Assembly: GCA_029210695.1 (NCBI GenBank)
Contig: JARGFH010000039.1
Coordinates: 1 to 35,073, forward strand
DNA from: Acidimicrobiia bacterium
GTDB lineage: Bacteria; Actinomycetota; Acidimicrobiia; Spongiisociales; JAHEDJ01
Length of the DNA: 35,073 bases
Direction of reading: 5' to 3'
Of the stretch, positions 1,679-28,463 are shown one piece after another. Each line of letters opens with the position of its first letter. Within the stretch, counting starts at the first letter, position 1. The notes under the pieces were generated by a model, which was not told the origin of the DNA, ran no database searches, and saw nothing but the letters and a program-made list of their open reading frames with translations. The translations under genes were made by a program, and so were the position numbers.

Positions 1679-1733
1679 GCGGGATTTGGAGACGGACGCC
1701 GGAGCGGTCCGCACCATGGAGAAGGAGAGACAA

Positions 1734-4700
1734 ATGAAGGGGTTGAACCAGAGGAGCCTCAAGGGTCTGGCAACGCTGGCCGTCATGGCTTTGATCACGT
1801 CGGTGCTTTTGGTGACGCCGGCGATGCCGGCGGCTGCGGACACGGCGGTCTTCGATGACATGGAACATGGTGATCCATTCGCGAACGGATGGTTCTCTTT
1901 CAACGGGGCGGTCGGCGGCGGTGGTATCGCGGCGAATACGGCCGACCTGCCTCCGGGTAACGGGGGCAGTTTCTCGCTCGAGACCGGCTGGGGGTCCGGC
2001 GGAGCTGCCGGCTTCTTCGGAGGATTCGGACGTACCAACCCGACCGACCTGTCGGGCGTCGACCACTTCAACTTCTGGATCAACCCGGACGCCGGTCAGG
2101 ATTACACCCTGGAGATCAACCTGCAGGACGACGACAACGCCGATGGCAACATAAGCTCTCCCGAAGACGACGAGTTTCAGTTCAACTGCGCCGTGTCGGA
2201 CTCGGGGCCGTGCGCCATTGCTGGAGGCGGCTGGCAGCTCGTGTCGATCCCGCTTGCCGGCTTTTTCGATGACAACTCCTTCCTGACCGGGGGCAACGGG
2301 ACACTCGACGCGACACCGTCAAACGGCGAGTTGATCAACGTAATCGTCGCTGTCATCAGCACCAGTGGCGCAGACGTGACATTCCGCACCGACTACTGGG
2401 CTTTCGACAGCCGTGTCGTCGACAACTTCGAAGGTGGCCTGCCGGCCGGCAGCGACGCCAACGGAAACGCCGTCGGTTTCTTCACCTTCCAGGACCCGGC
2501 CAGCACGGTCACGATCTCGACCACTGCTACTCCACCCGTTCCGGTGCCCGATTCGGATTCCTCGAACACGGTGCTTCAGGTGGAGACCAGCGTCAGCGGC
2601 AGCAACGGATTTGCCGGAGTTGTCCACGCCTTCGAGAACGAATCGGTCGACACATGGGTGACGCAGGACTGGAGCATGTTTGCGGGATTCAGCTTCTGGC
2701 TGTACGGCAACAACACCGGTTCAACCCTCTTCGTCGACCTCCTCGACAATCGGAATCCCGGCTCGACGACCGACGATGCCGAGCGCTTTTCGATCGATGT
2801 CGTCGACGACTTCTCCGGCTGGCGGCTCTTCGAGATCCCCTTCGCGAGTTTGAACCGGAAAGAGGTCGGCAACGGCGCTCCCAACGACGGGCTCAATCTC
2901 ACCGAGGTGCACGGCTGGGCGTTCGGTGTCTTCGACAGCGGGGTACCGTTCACCAACTACCTCGACGACGTTCAGTTGTTCGGAGTCGGCGAAGTACCCG
3001 AGCTGGCGGTGAGCTTCAGCGCCAACGACTTCGACGTGACCGAAGGAGACACCGGCCAGATCACGGTGGCGCTGAGTCGAGCACTCGGCGACGATGACCC
3101 CGATCGGGTGTCGATCGACTACTCGGTGGAGACGATCGTTCCGGTACCAGGCCGCGACTACGTCCAGCCTGCACCCGGCACGCTGACCTTCGTCAAGGAC
3201 GGACCTTCGGAGCTGTCCTTCTCAGTGCAGACGCTCGAAGACTCAAAGCACGAGAGCGCCGAGCGATTGATCCTGAAGTTGTCGAATCCCGTCGACGTGG
3301 CGGCCGGCTTCATCATGCAGGCCGCCCTCACCATCAGCGATGACGACCCCTTCGATCCGTTGCTGCTCGACGACTTCGAGCACTACCCGTACTTGTGGGA
3401 TGCGGCGGGCAATGTGGGGCTGGCCAATCCGGAACTGGAGTCCGGCGATCCTATGGCCGTGCCGGGACAGGGCCCCTATGAGCAGGTGCTCGAAGCGACC
3501 GTGCCCCTCCACGTGGACATCTCTATCGAAGGTCGCGTCTGCAATCGCGGAAGCGGCGTCATTCCGGTCGTCCTGTATTCCACCGATGAGTTCGACGCCA
3601 CGACGGTGGACCACACCACCGTCACACTCGGATCGGCGAGCGAGACGCACCTCAACCGCAAGACCGGCACGGCCGTGCGCCACGTGGAGGACGTCGACCG
3701 TGACGGAGATCTCGATCTGGTGTTCCATTTCCGATTCTCCGAAACCGGCCTGGAGTGCGATCCGTCGGTTGTGCCCTTCAACGGCCACACCTACGACGAC
3801 AAGCCCTTCACGGGCGGTGGCTCCGACGCTTCTTTCGGACGTGACTTCCCCGTCGGTCAGGACTGGACGGGTGCCGAGGCGCTGAGCTTCTGGTACTACG
3901 GGCAGAACACCGGAGATACGATCACACTGGACCTGCTCGACAATCGCGCCTCCGATCCCGGACCCGCCGGTTGGTCGCTGGTGTGGAGTGACGAATTCAA
4001 CGAACCGGCCGGCACTCCCCCGAACCCGGACAACTGGGGTTACGAGATAGGAGACGGCACCGTCAACGGCATTCCCGGCTGGGGCAACTCCGAGCTGCAG
4101 TACTACACGGACGACCCGGACAACGTCGCCACCGACGGCGCCGGGAATCTCGTAATCACGGCCGACGCGGCCGATGGTCAGGACTGCTACTACGGCCCCT
4201 GCGAATACACCTCGGCCCGATTGGCCACCACCAACCGGGCGGAGTTCGCCTACGGTCGGGTGGAATCCAGGATCCAGGTTCCCGACGGTGAAAATGGGCT
4301 GTGGCCGGCGTTCTGGAGCCTCGGTACCGACATCGACCGGGTGGACTGGCCTCAGACGGGCGAGATCGACATCATGGAGTACGTCAGCCGCCTCCCGGAC
4401 GAGATCTTCGGGACGATCCACGGCCCGGGATACTCAGGAGGTTCCTCCTTCGGCAATACATACCCGTTCCCCGGCGGTGTGGCAGCCGGCTATCACACGT
4501 TCGCGATCGAGTGGCAGCCGGATCTGATCGAGTGGTACGTGGACGGCATCGTCTATCACACGGCGACGCCGGCCGATGTCGCTCCCAACCAGTGGGTGTT
4601 CAACGACCCCGTCTACTTGCTCCTCAACCTGGCCGTCGGCGGCAACTTCGGCGGTGAAGTGAGCGACGCACTGACCTTCCCGCAGGAGTTGAAGGTCGAC

Positions 4701-6026
4701 TACGTGCGGGTCTACCAGGGCCCCGACACGGCTGAGCGGTTCGAGACGTCGTTCGTTGACGACTTCTCCGGCTGGCAGCAGGTCGTCGTACCGTTCGACG
4801 CCTTCGTGCGCAGTGCCGCTCAGCCGAATGGAGCGCCCGACGATGGCCTCAGCCTCAACGAAGTATGGGGTTACGGTTTCGACCTCCCGGACGCCGGTTC
4901 GAGCACCGGAACACTGTGGCTGGATCAGGTGCGGCTCGTCCCAGAGCCGCGCCTCGTAACAAATCTGAACGACGCGGGGCCGGGCTCGCTACGGCAGGCG
5001 ATCGCCGACGTCGTAGCCGGCGGAAACGTCGTGTTCGATCCCAGCCTCGCCGGCGGAACGATCACGCTCAGCTCCGGCCCGCTGGTCATTGGCAAAGCCG
5101 TCTCAATCGACGGCTCCGGTGCAGCCGGAATCGTGGTGAGCGGCGGCGGTGCAGACCGTGTCCTCATCGTCGGCCCCGGTGGGGTGGGCAACATCGGCCA
5201 TCTCACCCTGGCCGACGGCTACGGCTGGCAGCTGGCAGGATGCGTGCTCAACAACGGTTCGCTCACGCTCGACCACGCCACGGTGACTGGGTGCACCATG
5301 GCAACCGATGCCGGCGAGTTCTGGCAGGGCGGCGGTGGCATCTACAACGGTGACGGCGCAACGCTGAGCCTCGTTGACAGTACGGTGGCCGACAATCACG
5401 CCGCCTGGTCCGGTGGCGGTGTGTATTCGTTCCTCAACACGACCACCACAATCGTCCGAAGCACGATCAATGGAAATGTGTCGAATGATGTTGGGGGTGC
5501 CTTCCGCTCTCTCGGCAACGTGACGATCACGAACAGCACGATCAGCGGCAACACAGCAATCGGGTGGCACGGCGGTGCGATCTTCCAGACTGACGGAGAC
5601 GTCAGCATCTCGAATTCGACCGTAGCCAACAATGTTGGTCCGGACTGGGCACCCTCGACGTTCTTCATCGGTCAGTACGGTGGCGGATTTGTGCCAACGC
5701 TGACGCTGACCAACACGATCGTCACGGGTAATCAGTGGTACGCCTGTGAGAAGTTCGCATCGGGTACTCCCGGAAACGTCGTGTCCGGAGGTAGCAACCT
5801 GGTGCAGGACGACTCGTGCAACCCGGTCGGATCCGACCTGATCGGCGTCGACGCCCTGATCAGCCCTCTCGCCGACAACGGCGGCCCGACATTCACTCAC
5901 GCACTGCTGCCGGGCAGCCCGGCGATCGACGCGGCCAATGCGTCGGCGTGCCCGGCCACCGACCAGCGCGGAGTCACTCGGCCGCAGGGTGCCGGTTGCG
6001 ATGTCGGAGCGTTCGAACTCGAGTGA
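1734..6026 (+). CDS. Secreted multidomain GH16 laminarinase (endo-beta-1,3-glucanase)
   Basis: This exported 1430-residue enzyme is predicted to cut beta-1,3-glucan outside the cell. The ATG at 1734 is chosen because AAGGAG lies six bases upstream and a signal peptide (residues 1 to about 36) follows; an in-frame ATG at 1716 is less likely. Order: jelly-roll CBM-like domain (about 36-222), second CBM-like domain (226-420), Calx-beta domain (423-538), third CBM-like domain (543-1068), right-handed beta-helix of the SLRQAI type (1071-1430). The GH16 catalytic domain (747-996) lies inside the third CBM-like domain; its motif GEIDIMEY gives nucleophile E877, D879 and acid/base E882, the laminarinase form. 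A further domain (about 590-693, IPVVLYSTDEFDATTVD) is inserted earlier in the same CBM. It follows lacI in the operon. The activity class is firm; the exact substrate is inferred. Confidence 0.93.
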   Translation: MKGLNQRSLKGLATLAVMALITSVLLVTPAMPAAADTAVFDDMEHGDPFANGWFSFNGAVGGGGIAANTADLPPGNGGSFSLETGWGSGGAAGFFGGFGRTNPTDLSGVDHFNFWINPDAGQDYTLEINLQDDDNADGNISSPEDDEFQFNCAVSDSGPCAIAGGGWQLVSIPLAGFFDDNSFLTGGNGTLDATPSNGELINVIVAVISTSGADVTFRTDYWAFDSRVVDNFEGGLPAGSDANGNAVGFFTFQDPASTVTISTTATPPVPVPDSDSSNTVLQVETSVSGSNGFAGVVHAFENESVDTWVTQDWSMFAGFSFWLYGNNTGSTLFVDLLDNRNPGSTTDDAERFSIDVVDDFSGWRLFEIPFASLNRKEVGNGAPNDGLNLTEVHGWAFGVFDSGVPFTNYLDDVQLFGVGEVPELAVSFSANDFDVTEGDTGQITVALSRALGDDDPDRVSIDYSVETIVPVPGRDYVQPAPGTLTFVKDGPSELSFSVQTLEDSKHESAERLILKLSNPVDVAAGFIMQAALTISDDDPFDPLLLDDFEHYPYLWDAAGNVGLANPELESGDPMAVPGQGPYEQVLEATVPLHVDISIEGRVCNRGSGVIPVVLYSTDEFDATTVDHTTVTLGSASETHLNRKTGTAVRHVEDVDRDGDLDLVFHFRFSETGLECDPSVVPFNGHTYDDKPFTGGGSDASFGRDFPVGQDWTGAEALSFWYYGQNTGDTITLDLLDNRASDPGPAGWSLVWSDEFNEPAGTPPNPDNWGYEIGDGTVNGIPGWGNSELQYYTDDPDNVATDGAGNLVITADAADGQDCYYGPCEYTSARLATTNRAEFAYGRVESRIQVPDGENGLWPAFWSLGTDIDRVDWPQTGEIDIMEYVSRLPDEIFGTIHGPGYSGGSSFGNTYPFPGGVAAGYHTFAIEWQPDLIEWYVDGIVYHTATPADVAPNQWVFNDPVYLLLNLAVGGNFGGEVSDALTFPQELKVDYVRVYQGPDTAERFETSFVDDFSGWQQVVVPFDAFVRSAAQPNGAPDDGLSLNEVWGYGFDLPDAGSSTGTLWLDQVRLVPEPRLVTNLNDAGPGSLRQAIADVVAGGNVVFDPSLAGGTITLSSGPLVIGKAVSIDGSGAAGIVVSGGGADRVLIVGPGGVGNIGHLTLADGYGWQLAGCVLNNGSLTLDHATVTGCTMATDAGEFWQGGGGIYNGDGATLSLVDSTVADNHAAWSGGGVYSFLNTTTTIVRSTINGNVSNDVGGAFRSLGNVTITNSTISGNTAIGWHGGAIFQTDGDVSISNSTVANNVGPDWAPSTFFIGQYGGGFVPTLTLTNTIVTGNQWYACEKFASGTPGNVVSGGSNLVQDDSCNPVGSDLIGVDALISPLADNGGPTFTHALLPGSPAIDAANASACPATDQRGVTRPQGAGCDVGAFELE

Positions 6027-6047
6027 GGTTGTCAATCGTCCACCTCC

Positions 6048-6078
6048 GGGCTCCGGCCGGTTTCCCCGGCCGGAGCCC
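6048..6078 (+). other. Strong intercistronic hairpin between GH16 and GH3 genes
   Basis: A 13-bp perfect stem (GGGCTCCGGCCGG at 6048-6060 with CCGGCCGGAGCCC at 6066-6078) closes a 5-base loop. It starts 22 bases after the GH16 stop. No T-run follows, so it is more likely an mRNA stabiliser or partial terminator, separating expression of the secreted enzyme from that of the intracellular ones. Confidence 0.6.
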
Positions 6079-6102
6079 CTCCTCCAACAGGGACCTGAAG
6101 CC

Positions 6103-7899
6103 GTGATCTCCCACGATTCGACAATTGAACAGCTCATCGCGGGGATGACGCCGGCTGAGAAGATCGGCCAGATGACACAGGCATCAAATGAGGCCATCAC
6201 CCCTCGCGAGGTAGCGGATCTATCCATCGGATCGGTGCTGTCCGGTGGCAACGGCAACCCGACGCCGAACACCCCCTCGGTATGGGCCGACATGGTCGGG
6301 TCGTTTGTCGAAGCTGCCGGTCAATCGGGGATTCCACTGGTTTACGGCGTCGACGCGGTCCACGGCCACAGCAACGTGGGCGGGGCAACGATCTTCCCGC
6401 ACAACATCGGGCTCGGCTCGGCCGGAGACGAAGGTCTCGTCGAGCGAATCGGGCAGGCCACCGCCACCGAGATGCGGGCAACGGGAATCCGCTGGACATT
6501 TGCTCCGACGGTGGCGGTGCCACAGGACATCAGGTGGGGCAGGACCTATGAGGGTTACGGGCGGGATCCTGAATTGGTGGCCAAGCAGAGTGCCGCGTTG
6601 GTGAGAGGCCTGCAAGGATCCGGGCAAGGGCCCCTGTCCGTCCTGGCCTGCGCCAAGCACTTCGTGGGTGACGGAGCCACCACGTGGGGCACCGCGCCCC
6701 GTTTCAGCTGGGAGCACTGGTGGGACGGCTGGGGCGATAGCTGGCAGATCGATCAGGGCGACGCCCGGATCTCGGAGGAGCAACTCCGCTCAATCCACCT
6801 CCGCCCCTATATCGCCGCCCTCGAGGCGGGCGTCATGACCGTCATGGCCTCTTACAACTCGTGGAATGGCGAGAAACTGCATGCCCACCACGGCCTGCTA
6901 TCCGGCGTGCTGAAGGAAGAGCTCGGATTCCGGGGATTCGTGGTATCGGATTGGATGGGGGTCGACCAGATCGACTCGGACTACGAGACGAGCGTCGTCA
7001 GGGCCATCAACGCCGGCGTCGACATGGTGATGGTCCCCGATGACTATCTCAGGTTCATCGAGGTCATGAAACGAGTGACGGCCTCCGGACGGATCCCGGT
7101 AGAGAGGATCGATGACGCGGTGCGCAGGATCCTCAGAGCGAAGCTTGCAGCCGGGCTCTTCGACCCCCAACCTCCGACGCCTCCGCTCAGCGCTGTCGGC
7201 TCAACGGAGCATCGCGCCCTCGCCGCCGAAGCAGTGCGGGGCAGCGCCGTCTTGCTGAAGAACGACGGAGCACTTCCCCTCGCTGCCGGCGCCCGATCAA
7301 TTGAGGTGGCCGGCAGAGCAGCCGACGATATCGGCCTCCAATGCGGCGGCTGGACCGTGGGATGGCAGGGAGGTTCCGGACGAACCACCGCCGGGACGAC
7401 ACTGCTCGACGGGCTGCGAGCCTCCTCGCCACACGGCATCGAGTTCGACCCCTCCGGAGACTTCTCCAGTCCCAATCGCCCGGACATCGGGATTGTGTGC
7501 ATCGCCGAGCCACCGTACGCCGAGGGACCGGGTGATCGGGCCACACCCACCGCCTCCGATGAGGACAGGGCCGTCTTTGCACGGATGCGCGAACGCGCTG
7601 ATGTTTTGGTGCTGGTGGTCTACTCCGGCCGGCCACTGGTCATTCCGGACCTCATCGATCGGGCCGACGCCGTAGTAGCCGCCTGGCTTCCCGGCAGCGA
7701 AGGTGCCGCCCTGGGCGAAGTGTTGTCGGGTCTTCATCGGTTTTCCGCCCGGACCTCTCAGCCCTGGCCTCGCTCGTTTGAAGCCCTCGACGATCCGGAG
7801 CCCACCCCTCTGTTTCCGGCCGGACACGGCCTATCCCCCACCGCCGCCGATGCCGGCAGGAACTCAAAGACGACACCGCCAGAGCAAGTAAATGATTGA
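6103..7899 (+). CDS. GH3 beta-glucosidase (exo-beta-glucanase), cytoplasmic
   Basis: This 598-residue GH3 enzyme is predicted to release glucose from beta-gluco-oligosaccharides. The N-terminal barrel carries AKHFVGDG and GFVVSDWMGVDQ, where D283 in SDW is the catalytic nucleophile. The second alpha/beta domain ends with AAWLPGSEGAALGEVL and an FPAGHGLS closing motif, so the enzyme is complete but lacks the fibronectin-III domain of larger GH3 enzymes. There is no signal peptide. The GTG at 6103 is chosen because it lies after the upstream stop and directly before the first conserved segment (IAGMTPAEKIGQM); its ribosome binding site is weak. The gene's end overlaps a possible early start of the next gene, which suggests translational coupling. 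A laminari-oligosaccharide substrate is inferred from the operon. Confidence 0.92.
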   Translation: MISHDSTIEQLIAGMTPAEKIGQMTQASNEAITPREVADLSIGSVLSGGNGNPTPNTPSVWADMVGSFVEAAGQSGIPLVYGVDAVHGHSNVGGATIFPHNIGLGSAGDEGLVERIGQATATEMRATGIRWTFAPTVAVPQDIRWGRTYEGYGRDPELVAKQSAALVRGLQGSGQGPLSVLACAKHFVGDGATTWGTAPRFSWEHWWDGWGDSWQIDQGDARISEEQLRSIHLRPYIAALEAGVMTVMASYNSWNGEKLHAHHGLLSGVLKEELGFRGFVVSDWMGVDQIDSDYETSVVRAINAGVDMVMVPDDYLRFIEVMKRVTASGRIPVERIDDAVRRILRAKLAAGLFDPQPPTPPLSAVGSTEHRALAAEAVRGSAVLLKNDGALPLAAGARSIEVAGRAADDIGLQCGGWTVGWQGGSGRTTAGTTLLDGLRASSPHGIEFDPSGDFSSPNRPDIGIVCIAEPPYAEGPGDRATPTASDEDRAVFARMRERADVLVLVVYSGRPLVIPDLIDRADAVVAAWLPGSEGAALGEVLSGLHRFSARTSQPWPRSFEALDDPEPTPLFPAGHGLSPTAADAGRNSKTTPPEQVND

Positions 7900-7912
7900 G
7901 GAGACATTGCTG

Positions 7913-10900
7913 ATGAACCCCGAACCAGCCACAACTGCCGACCACCCGGTCGGTGAGGGCCTTATCGAGATCGACGGAGAAGGCTTCTATGCCATACCGG
8001 ACGTCGATCAGATTCCGCCCTTCCTGATGAGCGTGGTCAGCGACGGGGATCGCTGGATGTTCATCTCCAGCACCGGAGGCCTCACCGCCGGACGAGGTGA
8101 CTCCGCCGGAGCGATCTTCCGCTACGAAACCGACGACCGCCTGCACAACTCGGTGGGCTTCGCCGGACCGGTCACCGCTATTCGCATCTCCGGCGCAGAG
8201 GAGGGCGAGATGTGGACTCCGTTCCGCGGCAAGCCCCGATCGCAGGTTCATCGCAACCTCTACAAGGCGGTGGTCGGTGATTCGATCATCTTCGAAGAGA
8301 CCCACCGGGAACTGCACCTCACGTTTCGATACCGGTGGGCGAGCAGCGGTGAGTTCGGCTTCGTACGGACTGCAACGCTCGTCAACGACGGCGACCAAGC
8401 GGTACGCGCCGACCTGATCGACGGCTTGCTCGATGTGCTTCCGTTTGGCCTCGACCCGTCGGTGTACCAGAGCAAGAACAACCTCACCAACGCATACAAG
8501 CGGAGTGAAATCATCGACCCAATCAGCCGCCTGGCCGTCTTCTCGCTCGAAGCCGGAGTGGTCGATCGCCCGGAACCCTCCGAGGTTCTTCGCAGCACAA
8601 TCGCCTGGTCTGTGGGACTCGGCGAGTCTTCGGTGACGGTCGAGCCTTCCGCCCTGGCAAGTTTCGAAGCCGGGTATCCGCCGGCCGATGTCTCACTCCT
8701 CAAAGGCAGGCCGGGCGCCTACCTCCTGCGCGGCACCCTGGATCTCGCTCCCGGGGCCGACACTTCCTGGCACATCGTGGCCGATGCCGCCCAGGATCAG
8801 ATCGCCGTCGCCGCCCTGCGGACGCAACTCCACTCGGCGGGTGATCTTCCGGACGCCATTACCGCTTCGCTGCGGGCTGCCAACAATTCGTTCGTCCGGA
8901 TCATGGCACCGGCCGACGCGCTACAGCGGACCGGCGACCGTGTGGCCACGGCCCACCAGTTTGCCAACGTCACCTACAACGCCATGCGGGGCGGCGCTCC
9001 ACTCGCCGGATACCGCATCAACACCGATGACTTCTCGAGGTTCTTGTTCGACCGGAACCGGAAGGTGGCAGGCCGGCACCGGGATTGGCTCCGGTCACTG
9101 CCGGAGGTGATCGACCGACAGGCGCTGCTGGAACAGATCGGCCGGACGGGCGATCGAGACCTCGAGCGGCTCGGCCACGGGTACCTGCCGTTCGGCTTCT
9201 CGCGCCGCCACGGTGACCCCAGCAGACCGTGGAACGCCTTTTCGATACGAATACACGACGACGCCGGCCGGCCCGTCATCTACTACGAAGGCAACTGGCG
9301 CGACATCTTCCAGAACTGGGAAGCGATGTGCATGAGCTTCCCCGAGTATTACCCCGACGTAATCTCGGTGTTCGTCAACGCCTCCACCCCCGATGGGTTC
9401 AACCCCTATCGCATCACCCGCGACGGCGTTGACTGGGAAGCGCCCGATCCCCACGACCCGTGGAGCAACATCGGATACTGGGGTGACCACCAGATCGTCT
9501 ACCTGCTCCGCCTCCTCGAGGCTGCCGACCGCTTCCTGCCGGGGGAAGTGGGGCGTCTCCTCGGCGTATCGCGGTTCTCCTACGCCGACGTGCCCTACCG
9601 GATCGCCCCGTACCAACAACTCGTGGACGACCCGAAGGAAACGATCGACTACGACCAGGCGGCGGCGGCCCGGTCGGCCCGGCAAGTCGAACAGGTGGGC
9701 AACGATGGCAAGCTGATGCACGGAGAAGACGGCGAGGTTTACCACGTCACCTTGGCGGAGAAGATGCTGGTGCCCGCCCTCGCCAAGCTCTCCAACTTCG
9801 TGCCCGGCGGGGGTATCTGGATGAATACCCAGCGGCCGGAATGGAACGATGCCAACAACGCTTTGGTCGGATACGGCCTATCGATGGTGACTCTGTACCA
9901 CCTCCGCAAGTACCTTCAGCACTTCAGTTCGCTGATCCGCGCAACCGGCCCGGCAGATGTGGAAATGTCCACCGAGGTCGCAGAGTGGCTGGCGACCGTC
10001 ACCGCCGCCTTGCACGGGTCACCTGAACGTGGCTCCGACATCACGGACGGCTCCCGCAAGGAGCTCCTGGATAACCTCGGCGAGGCCTTCACCATCTACC
10101 GGTCCCGGGTCTACGAGTCCGGATTCTCGGGCCTCACGACGGTGGCGCTCGATTCGGTGGTTGAGCTCTGCGAGGTTGCCATCGAGCACCTTGACGGCGC
10201 CATTGGCGGCAACCGTCGGCCCGACGGCTTGTACCACTCCTACAACCTGATCCGGTTCGCGTCCGACGGGTCGGCTGCGTCGATAGAGCACCTACCGGAA
10301 ATGCTCGAGGGCCAGGTGGCCGCCCTGAGTTCGGGCGTGCTCACCGCAGAGGAAAAGGCCGACGTGATCGATGCCTTGTTCGCCGGTGCCATGTACCGGA
10401 CCGACCAGAACAGCTTCATGCTGTATCCGGCCCGACAGCTTCCATCGTTCCTCGACAAGAACGTCGTGCCTGCCGATGCGGTCGAAGGCAATCCGCTGCT
10501 CGGTGCGCTGCTCAAAGGGGGAGACCGTTCGGTTATCGCCGTCGACGTCGACGGCCGGTACCGGTTCAATGCCGCCTTCGCCAACCGGGACGACCTCGAA
10601 GCGCGGCTCGATCGTGTCGCCGGCGACGCGACATGGGGAAGCCTCGTGGCCGCCCACAGGGGGACGACTCTGGACACCTACGAGAAGGTTTTCCGCCACC
10701 ATGCCTACACGGGCCGCTCGGGATCGATGTACGGCTACGAGGGAATCGGCTCGATCTACTGGCACATGGTCGCCAAACTGCTGGTGGCGGTACAGGAAGC
10801 GGCGGTCGAAGCGGTGTCCACCGGGGCGCAGTCCGATACGATCGAGCGGCTCGTCGACGCCTACTGGCGAGTGCGATCGGGTTTGGGTTTCAACAAGTCG

Positions 10901-11368
10901 GCCGCGGAATTCGGGGCCATCCCGCTCGACCCATATTCACATACACCCGCCCATTCAGGCGCACAGCAGCCGGGCATGACCGGGCTGGTCAAGGAAGAAC
11001 TGCTGACCCGGCTGCTGGAAGTGGGGGTTCGGGTCGAGAGCGGGGAAATCCGGTTCGACCCTCGTTTCTTGCGACGGGAGGAGCTACTCGGCCAACCGGA
11101 GTCATGGCCGGTATACGACGTCGGGCTCGAACTGGGTGTGATTGAGCTCGAGGCGGGGTCGCTGGGTATGACCTTGTGCCAGGTGCCGGTTGTGGTGTCG
11201 GTGACATCTGGAGATGCCGGGATCGAGGTCGTGTTCGCCGACGGTACGGTCGAACACCAAGCCGGCCTGCGCCTGGATCGCCAGACCAGTGCCAGGGTCT
11301 TCGCCCGATCAGGCGAGGTAGCGCGGATCAATGCCCGGCTGCCGAAAGAGCTCGTCGAAGACAAGTAG
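7913..11368 (+). CDS. Beta-1,3-oligoglucan phosphorylase, GH149/GH161 type
   Basis: The 1151-residue cytoplasmic protein resembles the large inverting phosphorylases related to GH94. It would split laminari-oligosaccharides with phosphate to glucose 1-phosphate, saving ATP. The central alpha/alpha-barrel part has EGNWRDIFQNWEA, NPYRITRDGVDWE and IGYWGDHQIVYLL; D525 in YWGDHQ is my candidate catalytic acid. GH149 and GH161 enzymes have about this length, whereas GH94 cellobiose phosphorylases are about 800 residues. No signal peptide is present. The ATG at 7913 is chosen because TGAGGAG (7897-7903) lies before it; an in-frame ATG at 7892 overlaps the GH3 stop. GH16, GH3 and GH17 neighbours support a beta-1,3 linkage. 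The choice between GH149 and GH161 is open. Confidence 0.8.
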   Translation: MNPEPATTADHPVGEGLIEIDGEGFYAIPDVDQIPPFLMSVVSDGDRWMFISSTGGLTAGRGDSAGAIFRYETDDRLHNSVGFAGPVTAIRISGAEEGEMWTPFRGKPRSQVHRNLYKAVVGDSIIFEETHRELHLTFRYRWASSGEFGFVRTATLVNDGDQAVRADLIDGLLDVLPFGLDPSVYQSKNNLTNAYKRSEIIDPISRLAVFSLEAGVVDRPEPSEVLRSTIAWSVGLGESSVTVEPSALASFEAGYPPADVSLLKGRPGAYLLRGTLDLAPGADTSWHIVADAAQDQIAVAALRTQLHSAGDLPDAITASLRAANNSFVRIMAPADALQRTGDRVATAHQFANVTYNAMRGGAPLAGYRINTDDFSRFLFDRNRKVAGRHRDWLRSLPEVIDRQALLEQIGRTGDRDLERLGHGYLPFGFSRRHGDPSRPWNAFSIRIHDDAGRPVIYYEGNWRDIFQNWEAMCMSFPEYYPDVISVFVNASTPDGFNPYRITRDGVDWEAPDPHDPWSNIGYWGDHQIVYLLRLLEAADRFLPGEVGRLLGVSRFSYADVPYRIAPYQQLVDDPKETIDYDQAAAARSARQVEQVGNDGKLMHGEDGEVYHVTLAEKMLVPALAKLSNFVPGGGIWMNTQRPEWNDANNALVGYGLSMVTLYHLRKYLQHFSSLIRATGPADVEMSTEVAEWLATVTAALHGSPERGSDITDGSRKELLDNLGEAFTIYRSRVYESGFSGLTTVALDSVVELCEVAIEHLDGAIGGNRRPDGLYHSYNLIRFASDGSAASIEHLPEMLEGQVAALSSGVLTAEEKADVIDALFAGAMYRTDQNSFMLYPARQLPSFLDKNVVPADAVEGNPLLGALLKGGDRSVIAVDVDGRYRFNAAFANRDDLEARLDRVAGDATWGSLVAAHRGTTLDTYEKVFRHHAYTGRSGSMYGYEGIGSIYWHMVAKLLVAVQEAAVEAVSTGAQSDTIERLVDAYWRVRSGLGFNKSAAEFGAIPLDPYSHTPAHSGAQQPGMTGLVKEELLTRLLEVGVRVESGEIRFDPRFLRREELLGQPESWPVYDVGLELGVIELEAGSLGMTLCQVPVVVSVTSGDAGIEVVFADGTVEHQAGLRLDRQTSARVFARSGEVARINARLPKELVEDK

Positions 11369-11459
11369 GTTCCCGAGGTCGAAGCCGGCGCAAAGCCGGA
11401 AGGCATCGGAGCTTCGCCGCCCGGCAAAACCCTTAATTGAGTTGTTGAAGGAGATCGAA

Positions 11460-12347
11460 ATGTCATATCGCAACCAGAGGACCCTGTCTTTGACCGGAGT
11501 CGATGCCTCGAGGCTCTCAGTAGAGGACCTGCGGGAGCTGATTCGTGAGATTCTCGCGGCCGGAATCCACGGCCTCTGCTTCAGCCCCTACGTGGAGGGC
11601 CAGGGCCCCGGCACGGAAGTCGGCGCCGCGCAGATTCGTGATCGATTGGCCGTCATCCAGCCGTTTGTCGGTTGGATACGCTCATTCTCCGCACGGGAAG
11701 GGAACGAGTTGATTCCCGCGATAGCGAAGGAGCAGGGTCTGCAGACGCTGGTCGGTCTGTGGATAGACGACGATCTGGAGAAGAACGAGATCGAACTGGC
11801 CAACGCGATCGCTATCGCCCGGGCAGGCAACGCCGGACTCCTGGCCGTGGGCAACGAGGTGCTCCTGCGCGGCGATCTCTCCGAGGATCAGCTCATCGAT
11901 TACATCCAGCGCGTCAAGGCGGCAGTCCCCGGCGTAGATGTGGGTTACGTTGACGCCTATTTCGAGTTTGTGGACCACCCACGCGTAACTGAGGCCTGTG
12001 ATGTCATCCTCGCCAACTGCTATCCGTTCTGGGAAGGTTGTCCGGCCGACCATGCACTGCTGTACATGAAGGAGATGTACCGTCGCGCCACCGGGGCAGC
12101 CGGCGGAAAGAAGGTCATCATCAGTGAGACCGGCTGGCCGAACATCGGTACCCCGGAGAAGGGTGCAGTGCCTTCCTATGAGAACGCCATGAAGTTCTTC
12201 ATCGACACCTACCGGTGGGCCGAGGAGGAAGGCATTGAGGTCTTCTACTTCTCGGCATTCGACGAAGCCTGGAAGGTGGATGCTGAAGGAGACGTCGGCG
12301 CCTTCTGGGGCCTCTGGGACAAGGACGGCCGGCCGAAATATGTCTAA
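11460..12347 (+). CDS. GH17 beta-1,3-glucanase-like enzyme, first copy, no signal peptide
   Basis: This 295-residue GH17 (beta/alpha)8-barrel enzyme acts on beta-1,3-glucan chains, by hydrolysis or transglycosylation. LLAVGNEVLLRG contains the acid/base E133, and VIISETGWPN contains the nucleophile E223. AAGGAG lies six bases before the ATG, which fixes the start; no signal peptide or membrane segment precedes the barrel, so it is predicted to be cytoplasmic. Many GH17 enzymes are exported, so this location is notable. Its stop overlaps the start of the second GH17 gene by eight bases, indicating coupled translation. It may shorten imported laminari-oligosaccharides for the phosphorylase and GH3 enzyme; this role is inferred. 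Confidence 0.9.
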   Translation: MSYRNQRTLSLTGVDASRLSVEDLRELIREILAAGIHGLCFSPYVEGQGPGTEVGAAQIRDRLAVIQPFVGWIRSFSAREGNELIPAIAKEQGLQTLVGLWIDDDLEKNEIELANAIAIARAGNAGLLAVGNEVLLRGDLSEDQLIDYIQRVKAAVPGVDVGYVDAYFEFVDHPRVTEACDVILANCYPFWEGCPADHALLYMKEMYRRATGAAGGKKVIISETGWPNIGTPEKGAVPSYENAMKFFIDTYRWAEEEGIEVFYFSAFDEAWKVDAEGDVGAFWGLWDKDGRPKYV

Positions 12348-13302
12348 GTCACCAAGGGGAACCTTCAGCCGCGCCGATCCGTTGGTCCCGCACGGCAACG
12401 CTATCTGTTACTCGGGCTATCGAGAGAACCAGAGTCCCCGAACCGGCATGTACCCAAGCTATGCGGAGGTCAAAGAGGACCTTCTGATCCTGACTGCAAA
12501 CTGGGACCATCTCAGACTGTACGACAGCAGCCGGCACGCCGAAATCGTGCTCGACGTGATTGATCGGGAAGACCTTGGTTTCAAGGTCATGCTCGGCCTG
12601 GATCTGGCTGCCGAGATGAGCAACCCCGCTTGTCCCTGGGGTGCGGACTTCAGCGACGAGACCCTCATCGCCAACCGGCAGGACAACGACGGTCAAGTCG
12701 ACAAGGCGATCACACTGGCCAACCGCTACCGGGATATCGTGTCCTCCGTGGCGGTGGGCAATGAAGCCAGCGTCGAATGGACCGATCACATGGTGCCGTT
12801 GGAAAGCCTGATCGCCCGCGTCCAGAAGATCAAGAGCGAGATCGATCAACCGGTCACGTCTTGCGACAACTATGTCCCGTGGGCCGACAAGCTCGAACCG
12901 TTGGCAGCCGCTCTCGACTTCATCTCGGTGCACACATACCCGGTTTGGGAGTACCGGACCTTGTCGGACGCGCTCGCATACACGCAGCAGAACTACCAGT
13001 CCGTCGTCGATCGCTATCCCGGCAAGCCGGTCATGATCACGGAGGCCGGGTGGCCGACCGCCTCAAATGGGCGCGGCATCGATCCCTCGAATGCCTCCGA
13101 GGAACTCCAGGCGGAGTATTACGAAGAGCTCCTCGCCTGGACCAACGCCGAAGGGATCCTCACCTTCGTCTTCGAAGCATTCGACGAGCCCTGGAAAGGC
13201 TCACCTGATCCGTTGGAACCTGAGAAACACTGGGGCCTCTTCAGACTCGATCGCACTCCAAAGCTGGTGATGCAAGGGCTATACGGAGAACCTCACAGCT
13301 GA
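12340..13302 (+). CDS. GH17 beta-1,3-glucanase-like enzyme, second copy
   Basis: A second, clearly diverged GH17 enzyme of 320 residues. VSSVAVGNEASVEW holds the acid/base E142 and PVMITEAGWPTAS the nucleophile E235, so both catalytic residues are kept. The ATG at 12340 overlaps the end of the first GH17 gene by eight bases. No signal peptide is visible. The N-terminal segment GNAICYSGYR is typical of GH17 barrels starting at the first strand. Two coupled, diverged copies suggest a division of labour (for example hydrolysis and transglycosylation, or different chain lengths), which sequence alone cannot settle. It is the last gene of the operon before a hairpin terminator. Confidence 0.9.
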   Translation: MSKSPRGTFSRADPLVPHGNAICYSGYRENQSPRTGMYPSYAEVKEDLLILTANWDHLRLYDSSRHAEIVLDVIDREDLGFKVMLGLDLAAEMSNPACPWGADFSDETLIANRQDNDGQVDKAITLANRYRDIVSSVAVGNEASVEWTDHMVPLESLIARVQKIKSEIDQPVTSCDNYVPWADKLEPLAAALDFISVHTYPVWEYRTLSDALAYTQQNYQSVVDRYPGKPVMITEAGWPTASNGRGIDPSNASEELQAEYYEELLAWTNAEGILTFVFEAFDEPWKGSPDPLEPEKHWGLFRLDRTPKLVMQGLYGEPHS

Positions 13303-24378: not shown

Positions 24379-26790
24379 ATGGCACAACGGCTGCTGATGG
24401 CAGCGATCCTGGTGGTGGTGCTGCTTGTGCCGGCGACGGTGGCCGCCCAGGATGCCACGATCGGAGACCCCCAGTGGATCCGCACAGGCGGGCCCATCGG
24501 CGGCCTCGGCTACGACGTGCGGATGCGTCCGGACAATCCCGACACGTTGTTGGTCACCGACGCCTGGGCCGGCATGTTCATGAGTACCGACGGAGGTGCG
24601 GTCTGGTTCCCGGTCAATGAGGGAATCACCACGCGCACCGGACCCACCGGAGACGCCATCCCGGTGTTCTGCGCGACAGTCGATCCGAATGATCCGGACA
24701 TCGTGTGGGCCGGCACCCAGAACCTGCGCGGCATCTTCAAGTCTGTCGACGGCGGGCATTCGTGGGTCGAGTTGGATCGTGGGGTCGTCGAAACCGACGG
24801 CATCACCTTCCGGGGCATCACCGTCGATCCCCACGACTCCGACGTCGTGTGGGCCGCCGCCGAAATCTCCAGCTGGGCAGGAGGGAGACCCGAACGAACC
24901 GGGAGGGGCTTCGATCTGGTCGAGGGAGTCGTTTATCTCACCACGAACGGCGGGGCCGACTGGACGGCGGTCTGGAGGGGCGACAACCTGGCCAGGTATA
25001 TCTGGATCGATCCCACCGATTCGGACACCGTCTACGTCTCCACCGGGATCTTCGACCGCGAAGCCGCCAACTCGGATCCGGAAACCGGGGTCCCCGGCGG
25101 CGAGGGAATCCTCAAGACCACGGATGGCGGTCGCACCTGGACAAATGCCAACCAAGGCCTCGGCAATCTCTACATCGGAAGCCTGTTCATGCATCCCGAC
25201 GATCCGCAGGTTCTCCTCGCAGCGGCGGGTAGCAACGTCTACTACGAAGGGACCGGCGTCTACCTCACCACCGACGGCGCGGCGACCTGGGAGCCCGTTC
25301 TCGTCGATCCCGACAAGGAGGCCGAGGGCTTCCACTCCGTCGAGTTCTCGCTTGCCGAACCCGACATCGCCTACGCCGCTTCGAGCGGTTCGGTGTACCG
25401 CAGCGAAGACGGCGGCCGCACCTGGGCGGCAATGACACCACCGGGTTCGGCCTGGGGAGACCCGCCGGTCCGCGGCGGCTTTCCCATCGATATCCAGGTT
25501 GATCCCCGGGATCCCGACCGGCTCTTCATCAATGCTTACGGCGGCGGCAACTTCCTCAGCCGCGACGGTGGCCGCTCCTGGACCGTGGCCAGTACGGGAT
25601 ATACCGGCGCCCAGATTCGCGGCGTCGTGGTCGACCCCGACAATCCCGGACGGGTCTGGGTCACCGGACGCAGCGGTCTCTTCGTCTCGACCGACGGCGG
25701 CACCACCTGGGTCGGGCAATCCCCGTTCGACCCCTACCCGACCTTCGAGGGCATGGCCCTGGCCATCGCCGCCGATGGCTCGATGCTGGAAGCGGACAAC
25801 GTCGGCCGGGGCATCGCCTACGGCGAAGGGCAGGATTGGAGCTACGCCGAACCGGCCTGGCCGTATCCCCAGGCGGTTGAAGCCTTTGCCTTCGCACCGT
25901 CGAATCCGGAGGTGGCGTACGCCGGACTTGGCGCCTTCTTCACACCCAGCTACTTCGACGACTTCATTCCCGGAGGCGGTGTCCTCCGATCCGACGACGG
26001 AGGCAGGACCTGGCAGCCGGCCAACGACAGCCTCTCGGAAACGGCCCACGTGACCGGAATCGCCGTGGACCCGAACGATCCCGCCCGGGTTTTCGCCTCC
26101 ACCCACAACGCCGGCCTGCTCCTCTCTCTCGACGGTGGAGCCTCATGGCAGACGGTCGGCGCTACCACCGACCTCCCGGTGGTTGCTGTGGCCATCCATC
26201 CAACCGACCCCCGGGTCGTTCTCTTCGGATCGCGGGGCGTTCACCGCAGTACCGATGGCGGTGAGACCTGGACGGCGGCGGCCGGCGGCGTCGCTCCGGA
26301 GTCGATGATCGTCGATTTCGTCTTTGATCCCACCGATCCCGGCGTTGTCTTCGCCGCCGATATCGGGAGCGGTGTCTACCGGTCGACGGATGCCGGGTTG
26401 TCCTGGGAGGCGATCAACCTCGGGCTCCGGACCCGGGCGGTCAACGACCTGGCGATCTCGCACGACGGTCGCCATCTGTATGCAGCTACCGAAGGCGAGG
26501 GCATTTACCGCCTCGACCTCGACGGGACTCCACCGGAAGCCGCGCCGTTGCCGACGATCCCCACGACCACGTCGACCACCAGCGCCCCCGCCACAGTCAC
26601 CACCACCTCCGTAGCCGGGGTCGCTTCTACCGGCACGTCGGTAACCACACCCGAGCCGCAGGCAGCCGACGGCAACCGCGACGAAGGGGTCTCATGGCTC
26701 CTTTGGGCGGGGGCCGGTGCTGCCTTGCTGGTCGTGTTCGGACTGGGGTTGGCGATCGGCCGGGCCCGCCGGGCGAGGAGCCCTGATTGA
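24379..26790 (+). CDS. Membrane-anchored beta-propeller with 12 Asp-boxes (sortilin/BNR type)
   Basis: This 803-residue protein has a signal peptide (residues 1-23, with GGGAGG before the ATG), a long propeller region, a Thr/Ser-rich linker (about 720-760) and a C-terminal membrane span ending in basic residues (GRARRARSPD). I count twelve Asp-box motifs of the form S-x-D-G-G-x-T-W (for example STDGGAVW, KTTDGGRTW, RSEDGGRTW, RSTDGGETW), as in Vps10/sortilin and glycosidase-like propellers. The boxes are structural; no sialidase active-site arginines are evident, so a catalytic role is not supported. It would display a binding platform outside the membrane. The next gene, a multihaem cytochrome, overlaps its stop by four bases, which suggests a joint function. 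Confidence 0.85.
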   Translation: MAQRLLMAAILVVVLLVPATVAAQDATIGDPQWIRTGGPIGGLGYDVRMRPDNPDTLLVTDAWAGMFMSTDGGAVWFPVNEGITTRTGPTGDAIPVFCATVDPNDPDIVWAGTQNLRGIFKSVDGGHSWVELDRGVVETDGITFRGITVDPHDSDVVWAAAEISSWAGGRPERTGRGFDLVEGVVYLTTNGGADWTAVWRGDNLARYIWIDPTDSDTVYVSTGIFDREAANSDPETGVPGGEGILKTTDGGRTWTNANQGLGNLYIGSLFMHPDDPQVLLAAAGSNVYYEGTGVYLTTDGAATWEPVLVDPDKEAEGFHSVEFSLAEPDIAYAASSGSVYRSEDGGRTWAAMTPPGSAWGDPPVRGGFPIDIQVDPRDPDRLFINAYGGGNFLSRDGGRSWTVASTGYTGAQIRGVVVDPDNPGRVWVTGRSGLFVSTDGGTTWVGQSPFDPYPTFEGMALAIAADGSMLEADNVGRGIAYGEGQDWSYAEPAWPYPQAVEAFAFAPSNPEVAYAGLGAFFTPSYFDDFIPGGGVLRSDDGGRTWQPANDSLSETAHVTGIAVDPNDPARVFASTHNAGLLLSLDGGASWQTVGATTDLPVVAVAIHPTDPRVVLFGSRGVHRSTDGGETWTAAAGGVAPESMIVDFVFDPTDPGVVFAADIGSGVYRSTDAGLSWEAINLGLRTRAVNDLAISHDGRHLYAATEGEGIYRLDLDGTPPEAAPLPTIPTTTSTTSAPATVTTTSVAGVASTGTSVTTPEPQAADGNRDEGVSWLLWAGAGAALLVVFGLGLAIGRARRARSPD

Positions 26791-28463
26791 TCCGCCGCCT
26801 CCGCCTTCCGGCCGGGTTGCTTGCCGGGCTGGTGGTGGTCGGCGGCATTCTGCTTTTCGCTCTTCCCGCCGATCGGACTATCCACGGCCGGGTACTGGCG
26901 GCGGACGGAACGCCGGTTGTCGACGCGATCGTTCGGATCCAGGCGACCGACGTTTCCGTGCGCACGGCTTCCGATGGCGGGTTTGTCCTCGAATCCGGCC
27001 AGAGCGTGCGATTGAGTGCCTGGGCTCCCGGTTTCTACATCGCCGGGGGCGAAGAACACGCCCCGGGCAGCGAGGCCACGTTCACCCTGTCGGCAGTCCC
27101 GGACGCCGACCATCCCGAGTACGAGTGGCTCGGTGTGGAGGCGGGCGGTGGAGGCGAGGCCCAGGGTTGTGCCGCCTGTCACAGTCGGGACGGTACCGAC
27201 CTTCCCTTCGCTCTGCCGGTCGACGAGTGGCGTCAAGACGCCCACGGCCAATCAGCCCAGAACCCCCGTTTCATCACCATGTATCTCGGGACGGACGTCG
27301 CCGGCCGGCTCAGTCCGTCGACCAGGTACGTCTCTAGTCGGGATTACGGGCGGGTGCCGCTGGCGCCCGACCCTTCCCGGCCCTATTACGGACCCGGCTA
27401 CAAACTCGACTTCCCCGACACGGCCGGCAACTGCGGCGCTTGCCACCTCCCCGTGGCGGCGGCCGACGATCCGTACGGGGTCGAGCCGGGCAATCTCGTC
27501 GGCGTTGCAGCCGAGGGGATCACCTGTGACTTCTGCCACAAGATATGGGACGTGTCGCTCGATGCCGACACGGCCATGCCGCTTCCCAACCGGCCCGGGG
27601 TGTTGTCGTTCGAGTTGCTTCGCCCTCCGGAGGGCCACCAGTTCTTCACCGGCCCGTTCGACGACGTCGCTCCCGGCGAGGACACCTACTCGCCCCTGCA
27701 GACCCAAAGCGCGTACTGTGCCCCCTGCCACCACGCCGTGTTCTGGGACACAGTCGTCTACGACTCCTACGGCGAGTGGCTTCGCAGTCCCTACAGCGAT
27801 CCTGAGACCGGACGGACCTGCCAGGACTGCCACACGCCGGCCACCGGCGCCACCGTGTTCGTCCGTCCCGACGCCGGTGGCTTGACCCGGGACCCGGAAA
27901 CGATCCGCAGCCATCTCATGCCGGGAGCCGGCGATGAGGAGTTGCTTGCCAACGCCGTCACGGTGACGGCGAGTGCGGTCGAGGAGGAGGGCCGGATTGC
28001 CATCGAGGTGACGATTACCAACGACCGGACGGGACATCATGTGCCCACCGATTCGCCGCTCCGTCACCTGATCCTGCTGGTCGCCGCAACGGATGGTGAC
28101 GGGACGGCCCTATCGCAGTTGGACGGTCCGGTCGTGCCCGACTGGGCCGGGCGGGGCGACCCCGAAACCGGCCACTTCGCCGGTCTGCCCGGCACCGCCT
28201 ATGCCAAGGTCCTGGAAGAGTTGTGGACGGAGGTGTCTCCCACCGGGGCGTACTGGAACCCGACCCGGGTGCTATCCGACAACCGCATCGCAGCGCTGGA
28301 CCGCGACACGACCCGATACGTGTTCGCAGCTCCCCCAACCGGACCGGTAGCCGTCGAGGTCACCCTGCTTTTCCGACGGGCCCACCTGGAGCTAATGGAG
28401 CAGAAAGGATGGGTTGTCCCCGATATCGAGATGGCCCATCTCACGGTGCGCGTGGACGGCTGA
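26787..28463 (+). CDS. Exported pentahaem cytochrome c
   Basis: This 558-residue protein starts with TTG inside the last codons of the propeller gene. An N-terminal hydrophobic segment (residues 8-28) anchors or exports it; a carboxypeptidase-regulatory-like beta-sandwich follows (about 32-95). Five CxxCH haem motifs begin at Cys128 (CAACH), 216 (CGACH), 247 (CDFCH), 311 (CAPCH) and 345 (CQDCH), resembling cytochrome c554-like multihaem proteins. The C-terminal third is beta-rich without haem motifs. It should carry electrons outside the membrane; donor and acceptor are unknown. Translational coupling with the Asp-box propeller suggests that the two form a complex. Confidence 0.88.
   Translation: MIRRLRLPAGLLAGLVVVGGILLFALPADRTIHGRVLAADGTPVVDAIVRIQATDVSVRTASDGGFVLESGQSVRLSAWAPGFYIAGGEEHAPGSEATFTLSAVPDADHPEYEWLGVEAGGGGEAQGCAACHSRDGTDLPFALPVDEWRQDAHGQSAQNPRFITMYLGTDVAGRLSPSTRYVSSRDYGRVPLAPDPSRPYYGPGYKLDFPDTAGNCGACHLPVAAADDPYGVEPGNLVGVAAEGITCDFCHKIWDVSLDADTAMPLPNRPGVLSFELLRPPEGHQFFTGPFDDVAPGEDTYSPLQTQSAYCAPCHHAVFWDTVVYDSYGEWLRSPYSDPETGRTCQDCHTPATGATVFVRPDAGGLTRDPETIRSHLMPGAGDEELLANAVTVTASAVEEEGRIAIEVTITNDRTGHHVPTDSPLRHLILLVAATDGDGTALSQLDGPVVPDWAGRGDPETGHFAGLPGTAYAKVLEELWTEVSPTGAYWNPTRVLSDNRIAALDRDTTRYVFAAPPTGPVAVEVTLLFRRAHLELMEQKGWVVPDIEMAHLTVRVDG

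Follow-up and report, generated by a model that had tools for sequence, protein, structure and literature searches.

A laminarinase-type GH16 domain nested in a CBM11 domain that carries a second, exchangeable insertion

Introduction

Insertion of a catalytic domain into a carbohydrate-binding module (CBM) has been described for BoPDA of Bacteroides ovatus, whose crystal structures show a CBM interrupted by a CE4 deacetylase domain; its authors called this architecture unique to that enzyme (PMC11713874). In the GH10 xylanases Xyn10C and Pm25, a CBM4 is inserted in the enzyme (PMC7848910), and SusG, as cited in that paper, holds CBM58 inside the enzyme. Double or nested insertions are known generally, and inserts are generally smaller than their hosts (PMC13114784). 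Here we describe a gene of an Acidimicrobiia bacterium (assembly GCA_029210695.1) in a 35,073-nucleotide stretch, positions 1 to 35,073 of the forward strand of contig JARGFH010000039.1 (hereafter the window), whose product, a predicted secreted laminarinase, carries a complete GH16 domain inside a CBM11 domain that is interrupted a second time. The open-access papers searched do not describe GH16 inside CBM11; subscription papers lay outside the search.

Results

A single CBM11 domain split by a complete GH16 domain

The gene lies in a single uninterrupted frame (1686-6026, + strand, 1446 aa) that opens at TTG 1686. The ATG at 1734 is likely the start, as an AAGGAGA-type ribosome site stands just upstream and the N-terminus following it resembles a signal peptide. 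Residues are numbered here from the TTG, so that the numbers of the initial annotation, made from the letters of the stretch, are about 16 lower. The layout of the gene is as follows (window coordinates, all + strand).

1734-6026: whole gene, predicted secreted multimodular laminarinase, likely 1430 aa
1734-1838: probable signal peptide, MKGLNQRSLKGLATLAVMALITSVLLVTPAMPAAA, read from the sequence
1842-2408: domain 1 (aa 53-241), CBM11-like, weakly similar to CBM11 copies of relatives
2409-2984: CBM11 copy 2 (aa 242-433), uninterrupted, Pfam CBM_11, predicted CBM11 fold
2994-3344: Calx-beta domain (aa 437-553), 25.9 bits, slightly below the Pfam cut-off of 27
3351-3497: CBM11 copy 3, first part (aa 556-604), strands 1-5
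3504-3824: insertion A (aa 607-713), a module of about 105 aa matching no Pfam or NCBIfam family
3825-3944: CBM11 copy 3, second part (aa 714-753), strands 6-8, ending in LLDN
3945-3971: linker RASDPGPAG (9 residues) leading into GH16
3972-4718: GH16 catalytic domain, laminarinase type (aa 763-1011), nearest solved relative 2hyk
4359-4382: GH16 catalytic motif GEIDIMEY (ExDxxE)
4719-4730: linker GPDT (4 residues) leading out of GH16
4731-4943: CBM11 copy 3, third part (aa 1016-1086), strands 9-12
4947-6023: C-terminal repeat region (aa 1088-1446), its repeats read as a right-handed beta-helix
5850-6020: choice-of-anchor Q domain, ending the C-terminal repeat region

CBM11 copy 3 thus spans aa 556-1086 and is interrupted twice, by about 105 aa between strands 5 and 6 and by the entire GH16 domain between strands 8 and 9. 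The initial annotation had noticed that signposts running together in one copy are separated in the next by a whole GH16 domain, with a further insertion earlier in the same domain. After the shift in numbering, all of this stands: FWLYGNN 337, LLDNR 352, and DAERF 364 form an unbroken run in copy 2, while the counterparts in copy 3 are FWYYGQN 735, LLDNR 750, and TAERF 1015, with GEIDIMEY at 892 in between, and the earlier insertion is real (aa 607-713).

When the halves of copy 3 were joined without the inserts, as that annotation had proposed, the Pfam CBM_11 score was 62.3 bits (cut-off 27), against 12.6 and 42.6 bits for the halves taken separately; GH16 falls between profile positions 103 and 111. 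A hidden Markov model (HMM) built from eleven uninterrupted CBM11 copies only matched the window protein on both sides of GH16, with positions 81-117 ahead of it and positions 119-189 behind it. Among the relatives, we analyzed 45 loci with the nested order from two phyla; 44 have both junctions intact, and the remaining one, L041, has a frameshift within GH16. The HMM break point was identical across the 44 loci wherever both parts were detected. Because the flanks meet at one HMM position and the joined halves gain Pfam score, the flanks are, by profile comparison, one CBM11 domain broken by a complete GH16.

In the AlphaFold model of aa 553-1088 (predicted local distance difference test, pLDDT, 81; predicted template modelling score, pTM, 0.73), pLDDT was high in both flanks and GH16, and most of insertion A had values of 30-50. 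Copy 2 alone was modelled with pLDDT 88.6 and pTM 0.85, and a fold search assigned this model to the CBM11 fold (Z 19.9 to 6r31, root-mean-square deviation [rmsd] 2.2, 163 aligned residues). Comparison of the two strand lists indicates that the strands of copies 2 and 3 match one to one. With the whole nested region as query, all rows of the fold search concerned GH16 and are silent on the CBM halves. The structure prediction called for in the initial annotation agrees with the arrangement in the high pLDDT of the flanks and GH16. That both flanks would pack into one jelly-roll, with GH16 in one loop and the other insertion in another, rests on profile continuity and the one-to-one strand order. 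The short linkers at the GH16 edges (RASDPGPAG and GPDT) suggest a stiff joint.

The inserted GH16 domain is of the laminarinase type

The GH16 domain matched PF00722 with 75.6 bits (cut-off 22), and its ExDxxE motif (GEIDIME, aa 892-898) was invariant in 33 aligned rows. The nearest solved structure, 2hyk, shares 52% identity with it (Z 38.3, 235 aligned residues, rmsd 1.1), and the best sequence and fold matches were beta-1,3-glucanases rather than lichenases or carrageenases. Judged by its nearest solved relatives, the domain is of the laminarinase type and GH16_3-like. Since these relatives are endo-beta-1,3-glucanases and the neighboring genes encode LacI, GH3, GH149, and two GH17 proteins, a laminarin-like beta-1,3-glucan is the straightforward reading of its substrate. 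Laminarin itself is a sugar of algae and fungi. The window's genome (G000) also holds two further GH16 genes, adjacent to each other and non-nested (contig C81:6689-8142; L007 and L008).

The nested CBM11 lacks the aromatic residue of the CBM11 cleft

We take Tyr53, Asp99, Arg126, Asp128, Tyr129, Asp146, and Tyr152 of CtCBM11, whose residue letters were checked, to be its ligand residues. The CBM11 profile aligned to CtCBM11 (E 5.5e-7), and the loop holding GH16 fell at the Asp99 loop. Where CtCBM11 has RLDYQP (Asp128-Tyr129), copy 3 of the window reads RSAAQP. The nested copies read RSxxQP, and none of the 41 examined has an aromatic residue at the Tyr129 place (6 were without a readable motif); some uninterrupted copies retain an aromatic residue before QP (RATDYQP, RDWAYQP, and RATDFQP). 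Because the nested copies are without this aromatic residue, their CBM11 may not bind glucan, which suggests a role as a scaffold.

It is rather unlikely that the nested CBM11 is instead a working glucan binder, in which nesting brings the catalytic cleft alongside the binding cleft and lets the two grip the same chain. Such a role would accord with the presumed part of Asp99, whose position is carried by the GH16 loop, with linkers of 9 and 4 residues, and with a fold kept and conserved in all relatives, but the missing aromatic residue speaks against it, and these proteins have uninterrupted copies that could do the binding. The initial annotation had supposed that the two insertions hold the catalytic site rigidly against a binding surface; of this, the stiff joint is made plausible by the short links, whereas the binding surface is put in doubt by the loss of the cleft aromatic. 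A scaffold role for the nested CBM11 remains our preferred reading.

Unrelated modules occupy the second loop

The two insertions, which had at first been treated alike, are both real but differ in behavior: GH16 is present in all family members at a fixed loop, whereas the loop between strands 5 and 6 (site A) either has no insert or carries one of three unrelated modules. Site A was empty, with only a short link of hairpin length, in 34 of the 44 relatives. A module of about 105 aa of the window type was found in the window, L011, L012, L041, L134, L135, and L136, a helical module of about 160 aa in L040, L137, and L138, and three SLH domains in L013 (Pfam SLH, 113.8 bits). The three unrelated contents were noted in the following places.

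Window 3504-3824: window-type module
L040:5574-7334: stretch with the helical module
L013, aa 297-502 of its ORF (open reading frame): three SLH domains

The tree requires at least six changes of state at site A. Three sister pairs differ there, namely the window (window-type) and L040 (helical; support 100/98), L011 (window-type) and L013 (SLH; 100/100), and L138 (helical) and L136 (window-type; 99/94). Between L011 and L013, the DNA of the two flanks is 85% and 88% identical, the borders are sharp, the inserts are unrelated, and the frame is kept. No repeats stood out at the borders of this swap when the alignment was inspected by eye. No second copy of the window-type module that could have served as a donor was found in G000 or G339, and no recent SLH donor was identified in G348, where the SLH paralogues are at most 59% identical. 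The genome that carries the SLH swap gave 67 SLH matches, and its sister genome gave 3. Separately, we noted that two draft genomes of one genus (G348 and G406) have about 70 SLH-domain matches each, compared with 3 in the sister-genus genome G339.

Outside the nested family, the window-type module (motif GVIPVAILSTxxFDATTVD...DVNGDGxxDLxxHF, without a Pfam or NCBIfam model) recurs in unrelated secreted proteins, at the C-terminus or close to it (L171, L006, and L173-L178). The helical module (about 155 aa) also ends an extracellular nuclease-like protein (L181). We considered FIMAH for the L040-type helical module; Pfam and NCBIfam gave no match, and the module was left unnamed. These occurrences fit a permissive socket at site A for modules that otherwise stand at protein ends. 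By analogy, the socket modules may serve surface retention, an inference best founded for SLH.

It could be argued that the differences at site A are losses from a multi-module ancestor and not swaps, since change counts cannot separate gain from loss. This appears improbable: no relative has two modules together at site A, the most divergent members under outgroup rooting are empty there, and L011 and L013 have one module in place of another at almost the same border. Exchange of modules at site A is the reading followed below.

The nested order recurs in two phyla and probably arose once

Among 396 genomes sampled from the phylum of the window, 6 have the nested order (the window genome included); among 396 sampled from one class of Chloroflexota, at least 36 do. 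The species-genome collection added further Anaerolineae and two Agromyces isolates. The initial annotation had proposed a search for the same order in other GH16 proteins, and the 45 loci show it. In trees of GH16 alone, a single branch set all nested rows apart. Support for this branch against a wide set was weak (47) for all 44 and 88 for the 43 without L161; against the tandem outgroups, it was 100/100. A single insertion of GH16 into CBM11 is the simplest reading of these trees. Because the nearest relative of the window gene, L040, sits in a Chloroflexota metagenome-assembled genome (MAG; support 100/98), the gene probably moved between phyla. The phylum of the window is probably Actinomycetota, as another GH16 from its class clusters with a named Acidimicrobiia sequence. 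A nested gene in a MAG labelled Gammaproteobacteria (L047) clusters with Anaerolineae and was probably mis-binned or transferred.

These proteins often contain several CBM11 copies, and CBM11-GH16 tandems exist, so that two complete CBMs with GH16 between them might merely resemble one split domain. However, each of six CBM11-GH16 tandem controls gave one contiguous HMM match over the whole length, while in the nested protein the first flank stops at 117 and the second begins at 119, each without the strands of the other; two tandem CBMs are thus very improbable. An assembly or frameshift artefact has practically no chance despite the 181-contig draft state of the window genome and the frameshift in L041, because the frame is open throughout, as the initial annotation had pointed out, GC content and its value at third codon positions (GC3) are uniform over all pieces, and the order recurs in the 45 loci from many assemblies, including isolate genomes of Agromyces. 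In L041 (6808-6887, Actinomycetales MAG UBA1383), the frameshift inside GH16 leaves two overlapping ORFs, through sequencing error or decay.

Genes around the nested GH16 gene

The nested gene stands among the following genes (window coordinates, all + strand).

600-1634: LacI-type regulator
5938-7899: GH3, beta-glucosidase-type; true start probably past 6026
7892-11368: GH149 beta-1,3-glucan phosphorylase (NF058639, 1402 bits; cut-off 1150)
11331-12347: GH17
12235-13302: GH17, second copy

GH16, GH3, GH149, and two GH17 genes thus follow consecutively behind LacI, the content of a beta-1,3-glucan utilization locus. Elsewhere in the window, 24379-26790 encodes a large secreted protein with Sortilin/BNR repeats (beta-propeller) whose C-terminal end resembles a membrane anchor, and it is followed by a multihaem-cytochrome-like ORF (26787-28463).

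Discussion

We propose, with a probability of roughly 0.7 for the explanation as a whole, that the window encodes a nested laminarinase on a scaffold CBM11 with an exchangeable socket, serving the beta-1,3-glucan locus. The product would be a secreted endo-beta-1,3-glucanase working for the locus of LacI, GH16, GH3, GH149, and two GH17 genes. A single insertion, dating from the ancestor shared by the whole family, would have placed GH16 in the CBM11 loop that connects strands 8 and 9. In the GH16 jelly-roll, the N- and C-terminal ends are near each other, and because of this the CBM would still fold around a joint of two strands with short linkers. The host CBM11 would act mainly as a scaffold, setting the place and angle of GH16 between the upstream string of CBM11 and Calx-beta domains and the C-terminal repeats. 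The loop between strands 5 and 6 would be a permissive socket in which modules of the terminal type, once three SLH domains, are placed and exchanged, plausibly for surface retention. More tentatively, and at somewhat less than even odds, the CBM11 may have given up sugar binding to become a chassis with two sockets, one fixed for the enzyme and the other swapping surface-retention modules that are mostly terminal elsewhere.

Several points weigh against this proposal. The pTM of the nested-region model is 0.73, so that the rigidity of the joint is putative. Copy 2 (RKEV) is also without the cleft motif, so that glucan binding could depend on different residues. Neither insertion A nor the helical module has a family match, their anchoring role being an analogy with SLH only, and the 34 relatives with an empty site do without any site A module. 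Moreover, the contig of L013 is small and belongs to a draft genome.

An enzyme and its CBM are usually pictured as beads on a flexible string; here, the enzyme is built into the CBM via two short joints. The insert (about 249 aa) is larger than its host (about 180 aa), which runs counter to the rule of smaller inserts (PMC13114784). Homologue pairs differing by one swapped module at site A offer a handle on what such modules do, and site A is a named permissive loop for protein engineering.

Compared with known systems, the GH16 domain shares its fold and catalytic motif with the GH16_3-type laminarinases of Nocardiopsis F96 (2hyk) and Thermotoga maritima (3azx), which are not CBM-nested as far as their chains show, whereas the GH16 of the window is nested. 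The CBM11-GH16 tandem proteins of Chloroflexota (L162-L167) combine the same two families in one secreted chain; however, their GH16 belongs to a separate clade and stands at the C-terminus, after one to three whole CBM11 copies. CtCBM11 of Clostridium thermocellum Lic26A-Cel5E (1v0a and 6r31) shares its fold with copy 2 and its strand order with copy 3, but it is uninterrupted and retains Asp128-Tyr129, while copy 3 is split twice and the motif is gone. Xyn10C/Pm25 and SusG also nest enzyme and CBM in one chain, but in reverse, with the CBM as the insert and the enzyme as the host. By its sequence, the window protein belongs to the same kind as BoPDA, since in both a catalytic domain larger than its host interrupts a CBM-type beta-sandwich. 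BoPDA carries CE4, whereas the present family carries GH16 in CBM11, is conserved in two phyla, and has another insertion of variable content in that CBM11. Nesting of an enzyme in a CBM is therefore already known from BoPDA, and what is new here is GH16 in CBM11 together with an exchange site in the same host domain.

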